Shown one piece after another: positions 7,016-63,476 of a DNA stretch of 64,000 nucleotides. Location of the stretch: NCBI GenBank assembly GCA_900553465.1, contig USDT01000001.1, positions 79,437 to 143,436 of the forward strand, read 5' to 3'. The stretch's first letter is position 1. Each line of letters begins with the position of its first letter. The notes under the pieces were generated by a model. That model was not told the origin of the DNA. It did no database searches and worked only from the letters and a program-made list of their open reading frames with translations. Made by a program: the position numbers and the translations under genes. The DNA is from an uncultured Prevotella sp. (GTDB lineage: Bacteria > Bacteroidota > Bacteroidia > Bacteroidales > Bacteroidaceae).

Positions 7016-7438
7016 GACTGTATATTTATGCAATATCAAAAGTAAAAAATTTTGACAAAAAAAATTTTCAAAATAGAAAACGGAGCGCGACGGAACAGGC
7101 TTTATCAGACGGATTTTTCTTTTGCTCACCGTCGTATTTTTCTTCACGAATGACATAAAAAATCAGACGGCTCTGCGAAACAGCCTTTATCACCATGCGA
7201 TATGGGCTTGGTTATGGTGTGATATTGAGCATATCAGGCCCTGATATGGGCAATATCAGAGGCTGAAACAGACTGTTTCATAGCGCCATACAGAAGCTAT
7301 CGGATTGTCATAAAGCACAAGTGACTGGCTGTCAACACAATACGCAACCCTCTCAAAACTCGAGAATTTGCGACCGAGGAGACCGCTGCTCGAAAATATC
7401 GCCGTATTTTCGAGTTATCGATGAATATTTATGCAATT
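7016..7438 (+). repeat. Intergenic repeat element A
   Basis: Three-part element. An AT-rich block at 7040-7080 is followed by six 22-bp quasi-palindromic units at 7183-7314. The end module has a conserved stretch at 7341-7362 and a hairpin at 7389-7414 (CTCGAAAATA, 6-nt loop, TATTTTCGAG). The whole element recurs in inverted orientation at 33848-34280. The 41-nt AT block (7040-7080 versus 34216-34256) and the 22-nt block (7341-7362 versus 33933-33954) match perfectly; the rest aligns with scattered substitutions. It has no coding capacity. Confidence 0.88.
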
Positions 7439-7759
7439 ATGAGATCTGATTTTTGCATAAATATACAGAGACGTACTTAGAAATGAAAAGAGCACAAACA
7501 AAAACAACAGAGACTTGTCATAGTGTACTTTATGCTTATTATCTTTACGATATAAACAACAGCTGCAAAAGTCATAGATTTTTGCAAATAGGATTGTATT
7601 AACCATTTGTCCTTCCTGTCTGTATTCATCATTACATGACATTGCACAACAGTGCTGCGTAGTACAATATACGCCACAATGCCGTACTATACAGAATGAT
7701 ACTATTAATATGCTTTTTGAGAGAAACAAACAATGTAATATCAAAATAGCAGTGTTTAG

Positions 7760-7791: not shown

Positions 7792-7986
7792 CATAAATAC
7801 ATTATTATAAAACTGACACTAACCACACCAACCGATAGTATCTATTTGTTTGTTATGACTTTGGTCAGGTCATGAATCCTCCCATGCCACAGGCGACAAA
7901 ATAAACATGGCAACCTGTATGCGTAAAGTGGCGGACGATGACACAGAGAATATTTATCATTAATATCAATATAATAACTATTAATC

Positions 7987-10900
7987 ATGAAACAAAACTA
8001 CATTCTTACACGCAATCCACGATTATGGTTGCTGATGTTAGGCGTATTGTTTGCAGGAGTAGCTCATGCTCTGACTGTAGAAAAGCTGCGCACCCTGTCG
8101 CTCACCAATCCAGTGGGCATAGACAAGGCGCCGACGTTCAGCTGGATATTGCAGTCGGACGAACGCGGAGTGATGCAGAAGAGCTACCGCATCATGGTGT
8201 GTTCAGACAGCGACTGCTCCAACATCGTGTGGGACTCCGGCGTTGTGGAGTCCGACCAGTCGGTGATGGTAAGTCCCAACCACACCTTCGCTCCTTCGAC
8301 ACGCTACTACTGGAAGGTCACAGTGACCGATAACAAGGGCAACGAGGCCACTTCTACAGAGAAGGCTTACTTCGAAACCGGACTCATGGGCACAGGATGG
8401 GACGGAGCCAAATGGATAAGATATTCCAAGAATCCGCTAGGATATATCGACGAGAACGAGATATCCGACTACTCAATAAGCTGCAAATTCGAGATCGCCA
8501 AGGTGGCAGCCGGCCTGTGCTTCGGTATGACCGACGAGAACAACTACTACATGTGGCAGTTCAACACCGAGGGTGACTATCCGCGCTTCCGTCCTCACCG
8601 CTGGCTGAACAACAGTCCGTCATGCCTCGAGGACGTAGACCTCACCGGAATCATCGACCTGAAGAACAATGAGGAATACACCCTGCGCATCGACATAACC
8701 GACAACGGCATGCTCGCAAAGACATATATCAACGACATTCTGATAGACGAGCGCCGCGGCGACTTCCCCTTCGGACGTATCGGATTCCGTGCTGCACGCT
8801 CCGAATACACCGAAAACCTGTATGAGGCCGCCTACTACGACGACTTCGACATAAGCGTGGACGGTGTGTCCGTATTCACCGAAGACTTCTCTGAAGGCAA
8901 CTCCACCTTCACGGCAGGAAGCGTGAAAGGCGGACGCCTCTACTTTGAAGGCACGGAGTCGGCACAATACTGCTGGCAGAAGGAAGGTGCCAAAGGTTCG
9001 GCCCGCGCACGCCTCACCAGAGCAGCCGACAGTGCCAAAGGATATGCCATCGAGTCGGACATCACTCTGATGAAAGGCAATGTGGGCGTAGTGTTCGCCT
9101 ATACCGCATCGAACAATTATTATATGTGGGCGCTCAACTGCAAGGACTACGACTATCCGGCCATACGACGCCATGTCTACAGCAACAGCACAACGCCATC
9201 CTACAGCGACACGCGCATCGACGCGTTCACAAAGGATGAAATCCTCGGCAAGCCCCACCGTCTGCGTATCGAAGTCATAGACAACACCGTGAAGACTTAC
9301 ATCGACGGCCAGCTCGTCGACACATACACCGCTTCCGGAAAGATTGTCGACGGCTACACTGGCTTCCGCACACATGCCGACGACGAGGGTCCGGCCTATG
9401 CCGACAACGTAAAGGTGACCACCATCGGCGCTGACGGCAATGAGACCGTGCGTCTGTCAGAGGACTTCGAGGGCAATGCTCCTATGTTCGACGGCACAAT
9501 AACTGAACACGACGGTTCTAACCAGCTTTATGTATACACCGCCAACGGCGAGCAGAGATTCATGGAAAGCTCCATGGGAGCAGCCTCTATGTTCAGAAAA
9601 GAGTTCACGGCCAAGGCACCCGTCAAGTCGGCCAAGCTCTACAGTTCTGCCCTCGGCATATACGACGTATTCATCAACGGCACCCGCGTAGGCCACGTTC
9701 ATGACGACGGAACAACCATCTACGACGAACTGAAACCGGGATGGACCGACTATGCAAAGAAGGTATTCTACAACACACACGACGTGACGACACTCGTTAA
9801 GGAAGGCGGCAACGCCATCGGAGCTACCGTAACATCGGGCTACTGGGCCGGCGGCATATGCCACGGACAGTATGGCGACAAGCCCGTGGCATTCATGGCC
9901 AAGCTCGTCATCGAGTACACTGACGGCTCGAAGGAGACTGTTGTGACCGATGCCTCATGGGCAACATACGACAACGGTGCACTGCGCAAGGGCGACATAT
10001 ACAACGGCGAGACCTACAACGCAACTCTTGAGGACGGCTGGACAAAGGCCGGCTACGACCAGTCTGCATGGCACGCCATCGTGTCGAGCCGCGACTTCAC
10101 CGGCGAAATATGCGCCTTCGAAGGTCCGGCGGCACGCATACGCACCTCGCTGACACGTCTGCCGGAGCACATCACCATCTACGAAGGCATCAAGCAGACA
10201 GGCACAGCCTATGGCATGGTGAACGTTGTGTCCGAGACAAGCAGCAACTCACCCGTGAAACTGAAGAAAGGCCAGACCGTAATCTACGACTTCGGCCAGA
10301 ACATGGTGGGCTGGGTGAGAGTGAACGTCAAGGGTAAGGCCGGCTGCACTCTCCGTGCGCGCTTCAGCGAAATGCTCAACGACAAGGGCGACACCAACCG
10401 TGGCGACGACGGCCCCGGCGGCAGTCTGTATCTCATCAACCTGCGTACTGCCAAGGCTTCCATGTACTACACACTTCGCGGCGACGAGGAAGGCGAGACC
10501 TACAGTCCTACAAATACCTACTACGGATTCCGCTACTGTGAGATAACTGCCGGCGACGACATCGAGATAAACGGCATCGAAGGACTTGTCGTAGGTGCCG
10601 ACAACGAGGAAGGCTCGTCGCTCACCACAAGCCACGACGCCGTAAACCAGCTATACAGCAACGTCATCTGGGGCCAGCGCGGCAACTTCATGAGCGTGCC
10701 GACCGACTGCCCGCAGCGCGACGAACGCCTCGGATGGACCGGCGACACACAGATATTCTGCCGCACGGCTGCATACAACGCCAACACCGCAGCCTTCTAT
10801 CACAAGTTCATGGGCGACATGCGCGACAGCCAGCGTTCCGACGGTGCCTATCCAGATGTGGCACCGATAGCATGGGTGGGCTACGGAAACGGCGCATGGG

Positions 10901-42091: not shown

Positions 42092-43174
42092 TCACAGGCA
42101 CGACTCCACGAAGGCACGCATCTCTCCGGCGTGCTCCTCGGCGCTCTGCAACAGCTTCAGCTGAGCACGTGTACGCACAAGGTTGTGCAGTTCGTACTGT
42201 GTTTTGTAGTAAGTGTCGCCGTTGATGTAGTCGGTCAGGAACCTCACGCACTGCATATAGGGGAACAGCGCAGCGGCGTATGGCAGATGGTCGGTCTCGA
42301 CAGGCAGCAGGAAACTGCGCGCCGACTCGATGTATCCGCGCGTGAATGCACGGAATATGTCCATATTAAAGCTGACGTTCTCAAGGTTGGGATCGTCCTC
42401 AAGGCCCGTGTTCGCAGCCGAGCGGAGGAAATCGCCGTAGTCGGAGAAGATGTAGTTGGGCATCACCGTGTCGAGGTCTATCACGCAGAGCACGCTGCCG
42501 TCCTCGTCGAACATGATGTTGTTCACCTTCGTGTCGCAGTGGCACACACGTTTGGGCAGCACGCCTTCGCGGTGAAGACGTTCGGCCACGCACATGTCTT
42601 TGGCTCTTCGCTCCACCTCGCCGAGTATGTCGCGCACACCCTTCACGCGTCCTGCGGCGTCGGCCTCAACGGCATCGCTCAGCTGACGCAGGCGGAACTC
42701 CATGTTGTGGAAGTCGGGAATAATCTCGCCCGGCATCTCCGGTATGTCGGCAAGCATGGCTTCGAAGCGTCCGAAAGCCAGACCGGCACGCTGCGAGTAG
42801 TCGGCGTTCACGATGTCGAACGTCTTGGCGCGCGGTATGAACTCCGTCATGCGCCAGTAGTTGTCGCCCTCGCGGCGGTAGGTTTTTCCGTCGTCCGCAG
42901 CCACCACAGTGAGCGTCTTGCGGCCGATGTCGCCCTCGCCCGCCTCGCGCAGTTTGCGGCGTATGTGGTCGGTCACGGCCACGATGTTGCGCTGCAACAT
43001 GTCAACGTCGGTGAATATGGCCGTATTGATGCGCTGCAGAACATAGTCGGGCGCATCCTCCTCGGCGGTCTTCACCCTGTAGGTGTCGTTTATCAGTCCC
43101 GCCCCGAGCGGCTCCACACTCACGGGTGTGCCCTTGGTAAGGAAATGTGAGACAATCGATAAAAGGTCATTCAT
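42092..43174 (-). CDS. Phosphotransferase, N-acetylhexosamine kinase-like
   Basis: Cytosolic kinase of the aminoglycoside-phosphotransferase fold, in the group that includes anomeric N-acetylhexosamine 1-kinase (NahK). The 360 aa start with PLGAGLINDTYRV (nucleotide loop). The catalytic loop is VCHCDTKVNNIMF and the metal-binding VIDLDTVM follows. The substrate is probably a sugar or amino sugar, but cannot be fixed. No glycan phosphorylase partner is adjacent. Single gene between element D and the rubredoxin terminator. Confidence 0.82.
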   Translation of the reverse strand: MNDLLSIVSHFLTKGTPVSVEPLGAGLINDTYRVKTAEEDAPDYVLQRINTAIFTDVDMLQRNIVAVTDHIRRKLREAGEGDIGRKTLTVVAADDGKTYRREGDNYWRMTEFIPRAKTFDIVNADYSQRAGLAFGRFEAMLADIPEMPGEIIPDFHNMEFRLRQLSDAVEADAAGRVKGVRDILGEVERRAKDMCVAERLHREGVLPKRVCHCDTKVNNIMFDEDGSVLCVIDLDTVMPNYIFSDYGDFLRSAANTGLEDDPNLENVSFNMDIFRAFTRGYIESARSFLLPVETDHLPYAAALFPYMQCVRFLTDYINGDTYYKTQYELHNLVRTRAQLKLLQSAEEHAGEMRAFVESCL

Positions 43175-43524: not shown

Positions 43525-43689
43525 TTAATCCTCTGCCGGAGAGAAATCGTCTGTTCCTACTCCACAAAGCGGGCATACCCAATCTTCGGGCAGATCCTCA
43601 AATGCTGTTCCGGGAGCTATGCCGTTCTCTGGATCTCCCACCTCAGGGTCATATACATATCCACATGTATCACATACATACTTCTTCAT
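43525..43689 (-). CDS. Rubredoxin
   Basis: A 54-aa iron-sulfur electron carrier: one iron held by C6, C9, C39 and C42 ([15 protein letters not shown] and [14 protein letters not shown]). The frame continues 21 codons upstream to 43752, but the start at 43689 gives the standard rubredoxin N-terminus and the upstream part is not family-like. It probably serves oxidative-stress or anaerobic electron transfer. Small single gene next to the AT-rich SIR2 gene. Confidence 0.95.
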
Positions 43690-43932: not shown

Positions 43933-43964
43933 TAAGAAATGGTACATAGATGTACCGTTTCTTA
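43933..43964 (-). terminator. Terminator of the SIR2-domain gene
   Basis: A 15-bp stem with one G-U-type mismatch (TAAGAAACGGTACAT / ATGTACCATTTCTTA on the minus strand) and a 2-nt loop, about 110 bp after the stop, followed by TTTG. Confidence 0.65.
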
Positions 43965-44074: not shown

Positions 44075-46402
44075 CTAATAATTACATTTTTTCAAAATAT
44101 CATCAATTATTTGTAACTTTCTTCTGATTCCATGATTCCAGTTTTTCGAAGCATATTCCTCATTTAACCATTTTTTTGATATTCTTAAATAATATATTGT
44201 TTTTTCATTATTTACTTTATAAAAATATCTGATGGCTTGATCTGCAAACGTTATTGCATGGAATGTCTTACGTTGATCATCTTCGTAACATTTATGCAAA
44301 ATATTCATACTTTCATCTAATATTTTTTCTGTTTCAGAAGTCAATGAAATATCATAATTAGCTTCAAAAAGAATAATGGCATGTGAATTCCTAATAGAAA
44401 AATATTTATTATTTGTCATAATTTTAGCTCTATCTATCCATTCAAAAGCAGATTTATATTGTTTCTTACTAGACAAATATAATGCACCTTGTTGAAGTAC
44501 ATACGGATTTTCATAATCATACAAAAAAGCTTGCTCATAAAAATTTTTTCCTTTCTTCCAATCTGGGAATGCCAATAATATTAATTCTTTATCAAACGCA
44601 TACTTTTTAAACTTACTGTAATTACAAATTTGAACTTGAGGTACATTATTTATGACACCATTAATTACTTTTGATAACAAATTCTTACTTGAATATTTTA
44701 ATATTATATCTGCAAAATAATATGATCTCGGATAATAATAATCCATATTAATATCATATATTGGATCTTCAAATTCATTTAATAAATCTTCAAGTTGTTC
44801 TTTTATACTATAAATATACTTATAATCTATACTTTGATTATCATTAAAATAACTATATGCAACCTCCATGGATAAAGGAACACGACAATAATGCATATAG
44901 GCACATAAGATAAGAAATTCCGCTAAAATTTCATTATCTTTTTCCATCTCCTCTATAATACTTTTATATCTTTCTTTTATAGTTTCTCCTTTTATATTTC
45001 TAATTACAAATTCAAAAATGGAATCATCTTTATATTTGTTATTCATTTCCTTTTTTAAGGAATTCCCTTTTATTTCAATAGGCAACATGTCATAAACTCC
45101 CTGAATGTCTATATCTGAAAGTTCTGTAACATTTATAATTTCAAACAAATTACTATTAATATGATTACTTACAATTTCAAAGTTATGACTTCTATCTATT
45201 CCTATTAATTTTATATTCGTTGCTTTAGATAATATTAAAAATGCATCTACTGCATCTGTAAAATCCTCAATAACTATTAGAGCTTTTTCTCTTCCTAACA
45301 ATTTTAAAATATAATCAGCCTTTGTAACTGTTAAATCAGAAAAAAATAACTTTATTGCAAAACCATTAGCTGAATAAACAGACTGCATCACTAAAGTAGA
45401 TTTTCCAGAAAGAGGAGCTCCTATAATCACAAGATTTTTATTAGGGTTATGAATTGCATTTAGTATCTTTTTATAATAAGACGTTTTATAAATATTATTA
45501 CTCATTATATCACTCCAAATAGGAGGCATTCCTTTAAAAAAATCAATAATGGGTCTTGTTAATAACCCTTTATTGGTTTCAGGTACAAGATTAGATTTAA
45601 ATAAGTCTTGTAATATTTTATGTCCTGTTTTTGAAGTTTTAATTTGAGAATTGTATAAATTGGGGATAGATTCTAAAAACTCTTTAATATCTGAATTTAT
45701 TATACTAAAACCCATTGCATGAAAATACTCAATATCATCAGCTGATGGTTCATATAATAAAATCCATTTTTCTTTTTGTGCTTTCTCAAAAGTATTATGA
45801 GAAGTTACTGCCTGTATTACAGAATTATCATTAAAACTATATCCTATGAATAATGTTGGATATTTTTCTATAGAATGAGAAACATAATTCCAAATTCTTG
45901 GTACATTATTATATATATTAGCTAAAGATGAAGTATCAAATATATATGTATTTGATCCGCTATCTACATTACCATGTAAAGGTAAATAATTTATAGCCCC
46001 GAAATCTGGCGACTCGCCATTATTACGTTGATCATTTAAAAAAGCATTACTATTTTTTTCTATAATTTTAGGTATTAAATTATCAATATTTGTTGTATAA
46101 ATTGCTTTTATATTTACCAGATTCATATTATAATATAAATCTGGTAAATACTTCACACTAAATCTTTCTGTTAGATATTCTCTATATTCTTTCTTTTTTG
46201 TCTTATCTAGAATGGTACATAATTTTGATAATGTATCCATTTTTTTTCCAAATTTTTCATTTAATTCTTCTAACAATTTATTACCTAAAGGCAACTCCCT
46301 ATCAAAAGCATCCTTTGCATAAATTGAAAAACCAGCTCCAACAAAAATATTAATTCCATTACTAATGGCATTAGATAAAGAATATTTATTTTCTATTTTC
46401 AT
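44075..46402 (-). CDS. SIR2-like / P-loop NTPase / TPR-like protein, candidate anti-phage sensor
   Basis: A 775-aa cytosolic protein. The N-terminal SIR2-like domain (about 1-250) keeps the NAD-site residues: VGAGFS (21-26), TTNID (N105, D107), LPLHGNVD (H143) and GYSFND (187-192), as in NAD-depleting defence proteins. A P-loop NTPase follows: Walker A GAPLSGKST (328-336) and Walker B-like ALIVIED (374-380). The region from about 480 to 775 is helical, with TPR-like repeats (YENPYVLQQGALYLSSKKQY). This SIR2-STAND-sensor order is known in antiviral STAND (Avs-type) proteins; the defence role is inferred. The gene is far more AT-rich than both neighbours, with different codon choice, and stands alone 64 bp from the beta-helix gene: signs of transfer. 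A plain regulatory STAND protein is the alternative. Confidence 0.85.
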   Translation of the reverse strand: MKIENKYSLSNAISNGINIFVGAGFSIYAKDAFDRELPLGNKLLEELNEKFGKKMDTLSKLCTILDKTKKKEYREYLTERFSVKYLPDLYYNMNLVNIKAIYTTNIDNLIPKIIEKNSNAFLNDQRNNGESPDFGAINYLPLHGNVDSGSNTYIFDTSSLANIYNNVPRIWNYVSHSIEKYPTLFIGYSFNDNSVIQAVTSHNTFEKAQKEKWILLYEPSADDIEYFHAMGFSIINSDIKEFLESIPNLYNSQIKTSKTGHKILQDLFKSNLVPETNKGLLTRPIIDFFKGMPPIWSDIMSNNIYKTSYYKKILNAIHNPNKNLVIIGAPLSGKSTLVMQSVYSANGFAIKLFFSDLTVTKADYILKLLGREKALIVIEDFTDAVDAFLILSKATNIKLIGIDRSHNFEIVSNHINSNLFEIINVTELSDIDIQGVYDMLPIEIKGNSLKKEMNNKYKDDSIFEFVIRNIKGETIKERYKSIIEEMEKDNEILAEFLILCAYMHYCRVPLSMEVAYSYFNDNQSIDYKYIYSIKEQLEDLLNEFEDPIYDINMDYYYPRSYYFADIILKYSSKNLLSKVINGVINNVPQVQICNYSKFKKYAFDKELILLAFPDWKKGKNFYEQAFLYDYENPYVLQQGALYLSSKKQYKSAFEWIDRAKIMTNNKYFSIRNSHAIILFEANYDISLTSETEKILDESMNILHKCYEDDQRKTFHAITFADQAIRYFYKVNNEKTIYYLRISKKWLNEEYASKNWNHGIRRKLQIIDDILKKCNY

Positions 46403-46466: not shown

Positions 46467-47711
46467 TCAGGGATTCACCGTCACATTATACAGTTCCTCG
46501 TTCTTGTCAACACACGCCACGGCCTGTATGACGGCTTTAGGATTCTGTATGGTGAAAGGCGCATCGGCCGTGTAGTTTCTCATACGGCAGCCGAAGAGCG
46601 TCACCGTCAGCTTGCGGTCGCCGCGCACGAGCATGAAATCGTATGACGAACCGATGGTGGTCAGCGCACCGTTGCCGCCCGAGAAAGCCTCAACATTGAC
46701 GAACGACGTGTGGCCCTCGCCCTCAACTATCAGCGGATGAACGTCCTTTATGTCTGCTCCTGCGTTGGCTATCACTGATCCCTGGGCTATCTGCCAGTTG
46801 CGGTTCTTGGTGTTTGCGCCGGTCTTGTGTATGCCAACGGTCACGCAGTCTAGGTTGAAGTTGGTGAGTTGTCCGTAAGACTCAGGACCGAGAAACACCC
46901 CGCCGTAGGTGCCGAAGGTGAAAACGTCGATGAGCTGTGCGTTGTCCGTATGGTTTATAGCGTAGCAGAACGAGCCCCGTCGCATCACGGCGTCGATGAC
47001 ATCACGGCTGAAACTGCGGCCGAACTCGCGCATGTTGGACGGATTGACATGGCAGTTGAGTATGCGCGGAATATCGTAACAATAGTCTATCCTTATGAAT
47101 TCGCCGCTGAGTGGGTAGCCGTAGCAGTGCTGAAATATCATCTGCTCGCAGGGATGGGACGGCACGGCGTTGAAGTCCATAGCCACATACTCACCGTAGA
47201 ACGTGAGGTCGGTCATGTTCACGGCGTTCACACTCTGCGTATGACTCACCTGTATTGTGGGCGGATAGGCAATGATGCGCGACGAATCGTTGTATGTCTG
47301 CTCGGGATACCAGAACTGTATACCGCGTATCTGCGTGGCTGACTCAACGGTGATGAATGGCCTTTCGGTATCGGTTATCCTGAAGAGCGAGCCAATGGGA
47401 TGCGGCCTATCGGGATGGCGTGTGCCTCGTCCCACGGGCGCATGGCTTCCTATGAGCGACACGTTGCGCCTCAACACTATGCCTCCGTCCACGGCATAGC
47501 CGTCCTCCACAGGCTCAACCCACAGCGCCTGTCCCGATCGTGAGGCCCAGTCGATGGCTTTCTGAAGGTTCTGACGGTTAGCCTCGGGTGTATTGCCGGG
47601 CAGCACTCCGAACTCCTGTATGCTCTTCATAGTGCCGGTCTGTGCCGGACAACGGCCTGCCACGAGCATGAGGCAGACCATGAGAAACGAAAGTATGCGG
47701 GCGTGTGTCAT
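46467..47711 (-). CDS. Exported beta-helix protein, pectate-lyase-3/GH28-related
   Basis: A 414-aa protein with signal peptide (1-23, RCPAQ). It begins with the pectate-lyase-3-type pattern SIQEFGVLPGNTPEANRQNLQKAIDWA, followed by repeated short beta-strand rungs (RGIQFWYPEQ, MTDLTFYGEY, HGT-like AINHTDNAQLIDVFTFGTY) typical of a right-handed parallel beta-helix. The GH28 catalytic Asp triad is not evident, so hydrolase activity is uncertain; it may bind or cleave uronate-rich glycans. It lies 33 bp after the LacI gene on the same strand and so is probably cotranscribed with it, beside the glucuronate operon. Confidence 0.72.
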   Translation of the reverse strand: MTHARILSFLMVCLMLVAGRCPAQTGTMKSIQEFGVLPGNTPEANRQNLQKAIDWASRSGQALWVEPVEDGYAVDGGIVLRRNVSLIGSHAPVGRGTRHPDRPHPIGSLFRITDTERPFITVESATQIRGIQFWYPEQTYNDSSRIIAYPPTIQVSHTQSVNAVNMTDLTFYGEYVAMDFNAVPSHPCEQMIFQHCYGYPLSGEFIRIDYCYDIPRILNCHVNPSNMREFGRSFSRDVIDAVMRRGSFCYAINHTDNAQLIDVFTFGTYGGVFLGPESYGQLTNFNLDCVTVGIHKTGANTKNRNWQIAQGSVIANAGADIKDVHPLIVEGEGHTSFVNVEAFSGGNGALTTIGSSYDFMLVRGDRKLTVTLFGCRMRNYTADAPFTIQNPKAVIQAVACVDKNEELYNVTVNP

Positions 47712-47744
47712 AAGAAATGGTTTAAGGTTTATGAATGATTAGCG

Positions 47745-48815
47745 TCAGACGAGAACCGTACGGTAGAAGTCGACGTTGTATTTTGTGAGTATGTCCATAG
47801 GCACGAACGTATCGCGCTGGGCCGGACGGACATGATATATTAGATGGTCTATCACGGTCTGGGCACACAGCGACAGTACGTTCTCCGTGTGCTGGGTGAT
47901 GAGAAACTGCACGGTGCCGTCCTTCAGTCCTTCGACATTTCTCGGCAGATGGTCGAAACCGATGAGCACTGTCTGTCCGCTTCGCCCCTCCGACTTCAGA
48001 TATTCGGCCACGAGATGCACACGCGAGGTGAATGTTATTATATGGTTCACGTCGGGATGCTCCATAAAGAAGCGGCGCAGCACGGTGCGGTTATATTCCT
48101 TGTCGTAAGGATGTATGTGCTGATGAATAAGTTCCGTTTGCGGCGCATGTTCCTCAAGATACTGTCTGAAGCCAGCGTAGCGGCTCTCGGCAGAGTTGTT
48201 TGCACTCTCCAGATCCTTGTGTATGTGGAACACCGCTATCTTTCCGGCGCTGCATCTGTCGGTGAGCAGATGGGCCGCCAGATATCCGCTGCGGAACATG
48301 TGCAGGCCGAAGTAGGCCAGATAATTGCAGACCGGCAGACACGAGTCTATCAGAAGGCAGGGTATATCCTTGCTGTGTAGCGTTTCCATAATGGCACGAG
48401 CACGCGTCTGGAAGGTAGGAGCCATGACCACGGCATCAGGCCTTTGCTCCATCACACATGTGAAACACTCGTCCATAGAGCGTTCGGAGAACAGGTCGTA
48501 CTTGAACATCTGTATACTTATATGGAACGGTTCGGCCTTCTTCTGCGCCGCCGTGATGCCTTTGGCCACAAGATCCCAGTATTCGCCCGGAGCATATTCG
48601 GGAATCATGCACGCCATGAGATATTTCTTCTGCGAGGCGAGCAGCGATGCGTGCACGTTGGGTTTGTAGCCTATCTGCCGCGCAATCTTCATCACCTTCT
48701 CGCGGCTTGCCTCCGACACTTCGCCCCGATTATGGAGCACACGGTCCACCGTGCCCTTCGACACTCCGGCCAGCGTCGCTATGTCTTTTACTGTTATGCG
48801 TTTCTCCTCATTCAT
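47745..48815 (-). CDS. LacI-family transcriptional regulator
   Basis: A 356-aa repressor-type regulator. The LacI helix-turn-helix is at residues 8-28 (VKDIATLAGVSKGTVDRVLH) with the hinge HASLLASQKKY. The periplasmic-binding-protein-like sensor domain follows (ACMIPEYAPGEYWDLVAKGI through VLIGFDHLPRNVEGLKDG). It is divergent from the uxaC operon 424 bp away, so the likely job is control of glucuronate catabolism and of the beta-helix gene in response to a uronate intermediate (inference). No palindromic operator was identified with confidence. Confidence 0.92.
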   Translation of the reverse strand: MNEEKRITVKDIATLAGVSKGTVDRVLHNRGEVSEASREKVMKIARQIGYKPNVHASLLASQKKYLMACMIPEYAPGEYWDLVAKGITAAQKKAEPFHISIQMFKYDLFSERSMDECFTCVMEQRPDAVVMAPTFQTRARAIMETLHSKDIPCLLIDSCLPVCNYLAYFGLHMFRSGYLAAHLLTDRCSAGKIAVFHIHKDLESANNSAESRYAGFRQYLEEHAPQTELIHQHIHPYDKEYNRTVLRRFFMEHPDVNHIITFTSRVHLVAEYLKSEGRSGQTVLIGFDHLPRNVEGLKDGTVQFLITQHTENVLSLCAQTVIDHLIYHVRPAQRDTFVPMDILTKYNVDFYRTVLV

Positions 48816-61975: not shown

Positions 61976-62368
61976 TCAATATATCTTTTGGTATTGTTGT
62001 TCTCCCCAGAAAATATAACCGCCACGATATTCAAGAGTTGTTGTCCAATTCGGATCAACAACACCATCTGTATTCATCTTCACTCCTTTCAGCTTTATTG
62101 TATTGCCTTTGAACGAATAAGTATACTCTGCATAAGAAGAAGTAATACCCTTCTTGTTTACTAATTCATATCGCCCCGTTTTATCTCTGTCAAATGTATA
62201 ATACAAATAAATATTATCATAAGTATAACAATAGGTTCCGTAAAAATCTTCTCCTATAGTTGTACCTTCATCTTCATCATCACTTCCACATGCAGCCAAA
62301 CAACCTGCAATAAAAATTACACTAAGCATTACATATAACGCTCCTCTTAATTTCAATAACTTTTTCAT
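61976..62368 (-). CDS. Small lipoprotein, unknown function
   Basis: A 130-aa protein with a lipoprotein signal peptide: hydrophobic stretch then lipobox LAAC (Cys about residue 27), followed by the acidic GSDDEDEG typical of Bacteroidota lipoproteins routed toward the cell surface. The mature part is a short beta-rich domain (EYTYSFKGNTIKLKGVKM) of lipocalin-like or DUF-type appearance, not recognised. It lies 97 bp after the larger lipoprotein gene on the same strand. Confidence 0.8.
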   Translation of the reverse strand: MKKLLKLRGALYVMLSVIFIAGCLAACGSDDEDEGTTIGEDFYGTYCYTYDNIYLYYTFDRDKTGRYELVNKKGITSSYAEYTYSFKGNTIKLKGVKMNTDGVVDPNWTTTLEYRGGYIFWGEQQYQKIY

Positions 62369-62465
62369 ACGATAATTAATTTGTTATACGTTGGTGAAAT
62401 TAAATCCGCATAAATCCAATTTCACCAACATATAAAGAATACATTTCTAAAATCTCAACCTATCA

Positions 62466-63476
62466 TTATTTTTGCAACACAACGTTATTGCGTTTCTGCA
62501 GATGTTTGAGCATTCTAAACAGTTTTGTTCCTGCTTTCTTTGCTTTGGGACCTGCATAATGCTTTGCAGAAGATGAAGCCATCTTACTTCTCACATCATT
62601 GATCGCAGTATAGGCATAATCTTGTATCTCCCCGTCTATATTTTCACTCTTTATTGTGCCGTCGCTGTTCAGTTCATAGCTTACGTTAGTTTCATACGGT
62701 TCATAGCTTTCACCGTCTTCTGTATATTCGTTAATTATTATTTCCGGCAAGTTCTTAGGACCGACACCGAACAAACCGACAATTGCTACAGAAGAAATAT
62801 CGTAATCTATCAGGTAATAACTCAAGACAACAGGAATCTGTCTTGCTTTGTTTTCCATACCTTCATTATATGTTATGTCATATTTATCTATGGTTTCAGA
62901 CTTTTCTCCATTTTCATAATCTACATATTTGGTTGTTATGTTCACGAGATTATCATTACTCCAGGTATAAGTCGATTTTCCGGTGCCTGAATATTTAAAT
63001 TCAATTCCTTCATATATTTCTTTCTCGTCAGAAGTAAGAGTCGTAGATGTAATATGGTTGCTTTTGTCATAAGTGAACGATATGCTCAAACTGCCGCTTG
63101 ATACTTCTCCTTCTTCATTCTCGTTCCACGAACCGGACAATTTTGTAATGTATCCTTTTTGATTGAAAGCAACCTTCATTCCCATGCCTTCAGAATCAAA
63201 GTAAACGGAATTATCACTATAATCTATTTCCACTTCCTTGAACGGTCCGTCATAATAATCGTATGTTTCAACAACGTTGCAACGTTTCTTTTCATCATAA
63301 TGGAAAATGTACTGACCTGCCTGAGTAAGCAACTTGTCAGAGAAGGTCACAGAAGGCCCGCCGGGATTAGAGCCACCGCTGTTTTCTTCTTCATCATCAC
63401 CACATGAAGAGAATGCCACCGAACACAGTGCCAATGCTATGCCTGGCACAATTGAAAAGATAAATTTTTTGTTCAT
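62466..63476 (-). CDS. Lipoprotein, DUF4595-like
   Basis: A 336-aa lipoprotein. The signal peptide ends in FSSC (Cys at about 25), then GDDEEENSGG, an acidic surface-export-type signal. The mature part has repeated beta-hairpins of the form YDEKKRCNVVETY, YSGTGKSTYTWSNDNLVNI and YELNSDGTIKSENID, the pattern of DUF4595/RHS-like repeat proteins in Bacteroidales. The C-terminus is unusually basic (KAKKAGTKLFRMLKHLQKR). Function unknown. Less GC-rich than the glycan genes. Confidence 0.75.
   Translation of the reverse strand: MNKKFIFSIVPGIALALCSVAFSSCGDDEEENSGGSNPGGPSVTFSDKLLTQAGQYIFHYDEKKRCNVVETYDYYDGPFKEVEIDYSDNSVYFDSEGMGMKVAFNQKGYITKLSGSWNENEEGEVSSGSLSISFTYDKSNHITSTTLTSDEKEIYEGIEFKYSGTGKSTYTWSNDNLVNITTKYVDYENGEKSETIDKYDITYNEGMENKARQIPVVLSYYLIDYDISSVAIVGLFGVGPKNLPEIIINEYTEDGESYEPYETNVSYELNSDGTIKSENIDGEIQDYAYTAINDVRSKMASSSAKHYAGPKAKKAGTKLFRMLKHLQKRNNVVLQK

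Follow-up and report, generated by a model that had tools for sequence, protein, structure and literature searches.

An uncultured Prevotella sp. carries, in the 64,000-nucleotide stretch of DNA analyzed here (contig USDT01000001.1, positions 79,437 to 143,436; hereafter the window), a minus-strand gene at 44075-46402 that joins a SIR2 domain, a STAND nucleoside triphosphatase (NTPase), and a C-terminal region resembling tetratricopeptide repeats (TPR) in one protein of 775 amino acids (aa). With a probability of about 0.82, we read it as an abortive-infection receptor that acts as a single gene and belongs to the SIR2-STAND type, resembling Avs5. The proposed role in defense is well supported, because the predicted fold matches that of Avs5, enterobacterial relatives occupy a hotspot of P4 satellites, and the gene appears to stand alone with a low guanine-plus-cytosine (GC) content. 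Thus, of the abortive-infection system originally predicted, the SIR2-STAND-repeat anatomy, the accessory single gene, and a likely defense role stand.

The open reading frame (ORF) is intact in the ORF list, with an ATG start and no internal stop codons, and the proposed SIR2-STAND-TPR anatomy was recovered. Pfam SIR2_2 matched residues 100-235 (5.8e-16, above the cut-off), and nSTAND_NTPase5 (nSTAND5) matched residues 287-388 (2.2e-10; 41 bits against a cut-off of 34). On the minus strand, the SIR2 effector domain covers residues 1-250 (45653-46402), the STAND NTPase region approximately residues 284-470 (44993-45553; the end is estimated), and the TPR-like helical repeat, which is the proposed sensor, residues 591-775 (44078-44632). 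No TPR model was reported in the Pfam scan of the protein; a run of helices starting near residue 560 and reaching the C terminus was present in both AlphaFold models, that of the full-length protein (mean predicted local distance difference test [pLDDT], 81.1; predicted template modeling score [pTM], 0.63) and that of residues 257-775 alone (pLDDT, 89.4; pTM, 0.85). The SIR2 part of the model superposed on defense NADases with a fold match beginning at residue 1-2, and the predicted fold, which had been named as a structural check, is clearly that of SIR2. Because of this clear fold, a Pfam match to Bac_thur_toxin (0.0061, under the cut-off) and a matching PDB cytolysin (0.0051) in the SIR2 tail were rejected as chance matches. 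PADLOC and NCBIfam were scanned at an E value of ≤1, with HMMER filters that remove most matches above about 0.1. NCBIfam returned nothing, and the sole match reported by PADLOC, mad8 (0.0049), was rejected as an identity because it was limited to the P-loop part.

A scan with one genome per species yielded 43 loci, 33 of which (L001-L032 and L034) hold near full-length members of the family. Conservation was assessed in an alignment of 38 rows (A2), comprising the window protein, eight database proteins, and 29 of the 33 loci; L004-L007 were omitted by choice of rows and not by result. Fifteen of the 23 positions counted were invariant, including G22, G24, N105, D107, H143, G187, D192, G328, G333, K334, and T336. 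The prediction of intact SIR2 sites for nicotinamide adenine dinucleotide (NAD+) and of an intact Walker A motif was therefore confirmed. The SIR2 motifs are GAGFS (residues 22-26), TTNID (residues 103-107; 46082-46096), with T103 and T104 also the same in 38/38 rows, H143-G144, and GYSFND (residues 187-192). H143 (45974-45976) belongs to an LHG motif that aligns with the LHG of ThsA. Walker A, GAPLSGKST, lies at residues 328-336 (45395-45421). The Walker B motif is indeed weak, as predicted, with E379 (45266-45268) in the string LIVIED; nevertheless, an acid is found at this position in every row (D in 28, E in 10). Q637 was the same in all 38 rows and R404 in 35.

The structure search against known SIR2 defense families, as originally proposed, placed EfAvs5 (9jap) as the best full-length match among solved structures, with a Foldseek value of 3.0e-23 over 880 columns and a TM-score of 0.29. 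A second solved Avs5, 9nc9, matched at 7.3e-17 (TM-score, 0.28). Domain order and folds are those of Avs5, at TM-scores that are low. In the Avs5 study (PMC12931631), the SIR2 domain is marked by an N-terminal GAGxS, TTNxD, and HG or NG, all of which are found in the window protein. The protein also shares with Avs5 the Walker A motif, the Walker B-like acid, probable counterparts of the conserved Arg and Gln, the C-terminal helical repeat by the models, and the arrangement of SIR2, STAND, and repeat in one gene of similar size. Avs5 itself is small, with a PADLOC model of 771 positions, an AVAST5 filament chain of 769 aa, and an EfAvs5 of 869 aa. The single-acid Walker B of PaAvs5-1 reads IIFIE, with Glu410 (PMC12931631). 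Thus, the short C terminus and weak Walker B, which had been taken as signs that the gene branches apart from the large Avs proteins, do not serve as such.

A difference from Avs5 was found on other grounds. The NTPase of the tested PaAvs5 is stated to be nSTAND3 (PMC12931631), whereas the window protein has nSTAND5 and stays below the cut-off for nSTAND3 (PF20720; 18 versus 27.2 bits). No match to the PADLOC Avs5 profile PDLC02170 was reported for the window protein at an E value of ≤1, and a scan of the 38 members (E ≤ 0.1) did not show PADLOC Avs5 in its 25 commonest families, beyond which lay seven further families with one member each. In addition, the C terminus is the most conserved main region of the family. 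The protein is read as functionally Avs5-like, yet is not filed as Avs5, because both nSTAND3 and the PADLOC profile were tried and neither was found.

On the other hand, these differences may reflect deep divergence within Avs5, and the gene may belong to Avs5 proper, with the fourth clade of the published tree as one possible place. We regard this as a serious alternative, at somewhat less than even odds. The SIR2-armed NLR-like receptors reported as tested are the Avs5 of Escherichia coli, E. fergusonii, and Pseudomonas aeruginosa, and pairwise identity among the three tested Pseudomonas proteins, each from a different clade, is only 18-21% (PMC12931631). Since tested clades are this distant, failing one profile means little and the family may still represent a deep clade within Avs5. 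The common anatomy and key residues point the same way, as do six further SIR2 proteins that form a second ring (A3; L037, L038, and L040-L043; ORFs of 829-873 aa). This ring can be aligned to A2 with 100% probability across 737 columns, and its member L037 reaches EfAvs5 by sequence (6.8e-6). The missing PADLOC match, the low nSTAND3 score, and a conservation pattern opposite to that of Avs5 argue against a true Avs5. In the ring, nSTAND5 was clear in L037, L038, and L040, just above the cut-off in L042, below it in L041, and absent from L043; Pfam TPR was above the cut-off in L040 and matched below it in L037, L041, and L042. The ring proteins are also candidate defense genes, and L043 gave one partial tblastn match against plasmids. 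In a tree with A3 as the only outside comparison, the branch that sets A3 apart measures 5 changes per column, which calls for a long-branch warning; because of this branch, the tree cannot place the family inside or outside Avs5.

Avs5 references were also sought in the order and phylum of Kluyvera (G006). A PF20720 scan of 197 genomes in this order gave three strong hits (L056-L058), which were rejected as Avs5 references because their N termini are unlike SIR2 proteins. These proteins of approximately 750 aa have strong nSTAND3 scores (163-177 bits) and an N terminus that reads like a restriction endonuclease. The PADLOC Avs5 scan of the phylum of G006 matched 0 of 299 genomes at an E value of ≤1e-15, and, as the 14 control genomes were equally silent, this negative carries no weight.

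The conservation pattern of the C terminus deserves separate attention. Mean pairwise identity in A2 was 0.390 for SIR2 (residues 1-250), 0.183 for the SIR2-STAND linker, 0.359 for the NTPase (284-440), 0.312 for the middle (441-590), and 0.413 for residues 591-775, the highest of the main regions. Of 703 pairs, 633 had a higher identity in the C terminus than in the NTPase and 477 a higher one than in SIR2, although the pairs are not independent and the excess over SIR2 is small. In the six rows of A3, the C terminus (0.245) was below SIR2 (0.283). The C-terminal domain of Avs5 is described as poorly conserved, with its last helices required for immunity (PMC12931631); thus, the pattern of the family is reversed, most clearly for residues 591-690 (0.475). 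The last 85 residues (691-775; 0.338) are more variable and, together with the linker, could be the true reader. A further reading holds that the family is a pan-bacterial SIR2-nSTAND5 receptor family apart from Avs5 that reads one conserved ligand, because its C terminus has a near-fixed length (38 members of 768-807 aa overall) and, across seven phyla, is conserved more highly than any other main region. We consider this rather unlikely; if true, what the family senses would be a fold shared by nearly all phages, or a change that many phages bring about in the host, and not variable phage proteins.

The genomic place of the enterobacterial relatives supports the Avs5-like receptor reading. 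The Kluyvera member is flanked by psu, which an Ogr/Delta gene precedes, and by a tyrosine integrase, past which tRNA-Leu is found; from these genes, the element is probably a P4-like satellite. The same gene was found at 95-99% DNA identity in 12 of 5426 E. coli genomes, and the three copies inspected lie between a psu remnant beside IS1 and an integrase, with tRNA-Leu beyond. Between psu and the integrase is a hotspot of anti-phage systems in P4 satellites, from which 18 systems and a P4 set were cloned and seven systems gave protection (Rousset et al. 2022, PMC9122126). STAND-repeat proteins with SIR2 are mentioned there in the hotspot; the E. coli relative WP_073461782.1 has the same anatomy and occupies the same psu-integrase place, and its likeness to them rests on these two features. 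Among the ORFs neighboring the window gene, no integrase or psu was noticed, and no systematic search was made; no tRNA was found in the 64 kb.

The psu and integrase neighbors in Kluyvera, together with the adjacent integrase in L031, would also suit a toxin-like maintenance gene of mobile elements that is unrelated to phage sensing. This explanation appears very unlikely, because no partner gene recurs and the STAND-repeat anatomy is that of a receptor. At the 33 loci, neighbors were clustered from as many as four ORFs per side, with fewer at contig ends; ORFs were picked mechanically, and GC-rich loci may contain false ones. No neighbor recurred in more than two loci, and those in common were four genes of L004 and L018, apparently one neighborhood, and one gene of L032 and L034. 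The gene thus appears to stand alone, as originally claimed. A domain scan of 135 neighboring ORFs of at least 80 aa (the first three per side, with L004, L016, and L017 left out) found the integrase family in three ORFs, among the best 25 of 119 families, and AbiEi, AbiEii, and methylase models in single ORFs each, among the best 25 of 166 families in a second scan. L014 adjoins a restriction-modification set with Vsr.

The base composition of the gene drops abruptly, as had been noticed. Its GC content is 24.7%, against a mean of 53.0% (standard deviation [SD], 3.9) and a minimum of 38.1% in 226 sliding windows of 2328 bp elsewhere in the 64 kb, which supports the view that it is an accessory gene foreign to the host chromosome. 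In 29 of 31 loci, the GC content of the gene was lower than that of its flanks by more than 5 points, with a mean difference of 13 points; two of the 33 were dropped for short flanks. An AT-rich island in a GC-richer chromosome could also be a dead import, acquired from elsewhere but nonfunctional in its host, and broken relatives exist: L033 at 7986-8879 (297 aa), L036 at 7392-7637 (an 81-aa frame under a match of approximately 3 kb), and the E. coli P276M copy, annotated as three pieces. Cut-short or broken copies are often seen for accessory defense genes. The full-length frame, the retention of all catalytic residues, and a length like that of relatives in seven phyla make a dead import extremely unlikely for the window gene.

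Alternatively, the SIR2 domain might make a signal or modify a protein without depleting NAD+, in which case the gene would be a stress regulator and not a defense gene. STAND-TPR proteins do include regulators, and the structure of a maltose-system regulator, 8bob, was matched at an E value of 1.1e-4. This is quite improbable, given that the SIR2 part superposes on defense NADases and that the gene is sporadic, foreign in composition, hotspot-borne in enterobacteria, and without recurring neighbors. Its sporadic presence is seen in the order of G001 (the Prevotellaceae genome of L001), where a match at an E value of ≤1e-30 was found in 1 of 393 genomes, namely G001.

The protein search gave 380 relatives at an E value of ≤1e-3 among 7995 scored candidates, and identity was 51-79% among the 120 matches listed, the window protein itself aside. 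The nearest gene relatives, where named, are in Bacteroidales-type genomes. The named rows of A2 span Bacteroidota, Bacillota, Acidobacteriota, Myxococcota, Armatimonadota, Thermodesulfobacteriota, and Pseudomonadota. The tree tracks these phyla more closely than it does shuffled labels (9 changes versus a mean of 18.6), although phyla are mixed in places, as where Alishewanella groups with Desulfuromonas. A pattern search from the single window protein gave 27 stretches and no relative.

Several results weigh against an Avs5-like phage receptor. When the STAND-repeat half was searched alone, the VIA score of EfAvs5 (15.2) was tied with those of unrelated helical chains (14.9 and 14.4), and 9nc9 scored 12.6. 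By sequence, solved Avs5 chains were not found with the window protein (phmmer, E ≤ 1), with the A1 profile (E ≤ 10), or among the best 60 of 252 matches of the wider A2 profile; RecA chains in the last search were rejected as summed P-loop repeats. A conserved presumed sensor fits variable phage proteins less easily. None of 50,697 phage records and one of 72,556 plasmids matched at an E value of ≤1e-5. Many relatives sit among ordinary genes (ATP synthase, pyruvate dehydrogenase, and polysaccharide genes among the best 25 of 119 families), so the island signal, for which neighbors had no chance control, is not general. Finally, a literature search of limited scope found no paper devoted to a SIR2-nSTAND5 family.

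Other known systems fit less well. DSR2 carries a long arm of repeats but lacks a STAND NTPase, while ThsA has a SLOG nucleotide sensor and Thoeris a TIR partner gene. The window protein differs from DSR1 and DSR2, which combine SIR2 with a repeat arm in the absence of STAND, by its Walker A-bearing STAND domain. It differs from ThsA in that no SLOG was found among its 9 Pfam families, STAND being present instead, and in lacking a recurring partner at the 33 loci. SAMD9 is given the architecture AlbA-SIR2-STAND-TPR-OB in PMC5445408; no sign of AlbA, SAM, or OB was found among the 9 Pfam families or in the models. There is no room for AlbA or OB, because the SIR2 fold match starts at the first residues and the model ends in helices. 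PaAvs5 also resembles the SAMD9 core (PMC12931631), so this resemblance is not special to the window gene.

A working scheme can be drawn by analogy with Avs5, which is reportedly activated as a filament, to judge by the titles of a study and of structures 9jap and 9nc9. At rest, the C-terminal helical repeat would be folded on the STAND NTPase and hold it closed. Binding of a phage-made protein to the C-terminal part, the putative sensor, would open the NTPase, and ATP-bound subunits would assemble, possibly as an oligomer or filament, bringing the SIR2 domains together. The predicted NADase would then hydrolyze NAD+ to ADP-ribose and nicotinamide, and infection would be stopped with cell arrest or death. 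PaAvs5-1 is reported (PMC12931631) to require Asn110, Asp112, Glu202, the Walker A Gly and Lys, the C-terminal helices, and Glu410, which cannot be replaced by Ala while Gln is tolerated; during infection, NAD+ falls threefold at 10 min while ADP-ribose rises, and both are at baseline by 15 min. The window protein has N105, D107, G333/K334, and E379 in the corresponding motifs, and motif and spacing suggest that R404 and Q637 correspond to Arg438 and Gln677.

The immediate surroundings of the gene only partly match the proposed insertion between rubredoxin and a uronate locus. Composition supports an insertion, and the AT-rich stretch starts between the SIR2 gene and the rubredoxin gene (54 aa; 43528-43689, minus strand) just downstream. 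However, the neighbor on the other side is a beta-helix protein gene in line with a LacI-type regulator gene (46467-48815), beside the apparent uronate locus (49239 onward), and a repeat scan gave no clear target duplication at the gene edges, where repeats are short and mostly AT-rich. A pattern scan placed a terminator-like hairpin at 43941-43956 (minus strand), approximately 120 bases beyond the stop codon, a weak signal (2 found versus 1.0 in shuffles; SD, 1.2). Promoter-like sites were not in excess at the gene edges (23 versus 25.0 expected). A comparable site was sought in host relatives. The beta-helix protein matched in 22 of 393 genomes (E ≤ 0.001), with 17 strong places at 58-69%; when these 17 regions, five of them contigs of <8 kb, were queried with 12 window proteins, including rubredoxin, the beta-helix protein alone matched. 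The protein of the gene at 42092 matched in 6/12 and 3/3 genomes (53-60%), and the LacI-type protein in 33 of 393 genomes (E ≤ 1e-60) at an identity of at most 43%; no close host relative for site comparison was found via these three proteins. Near the window end, two lipoprotein-like ORFs of 33-38% GC (61976-63476) form a further AT-rich coding stretch.

In general, the gene points to a probable receptor family that is widespread in seven phyla, apparently untested, and missed by the PADLOC Avs5 profile in the case of the window protein. It raises the question of which ligand is read by an NLR-like protein with a fairly constant presumed sensor, for which the E. coli member is a convenient starting point in the laboratory. 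The family also extends the resemblance of human SAMD9 to SIR2-STAND proteins of bacteria.
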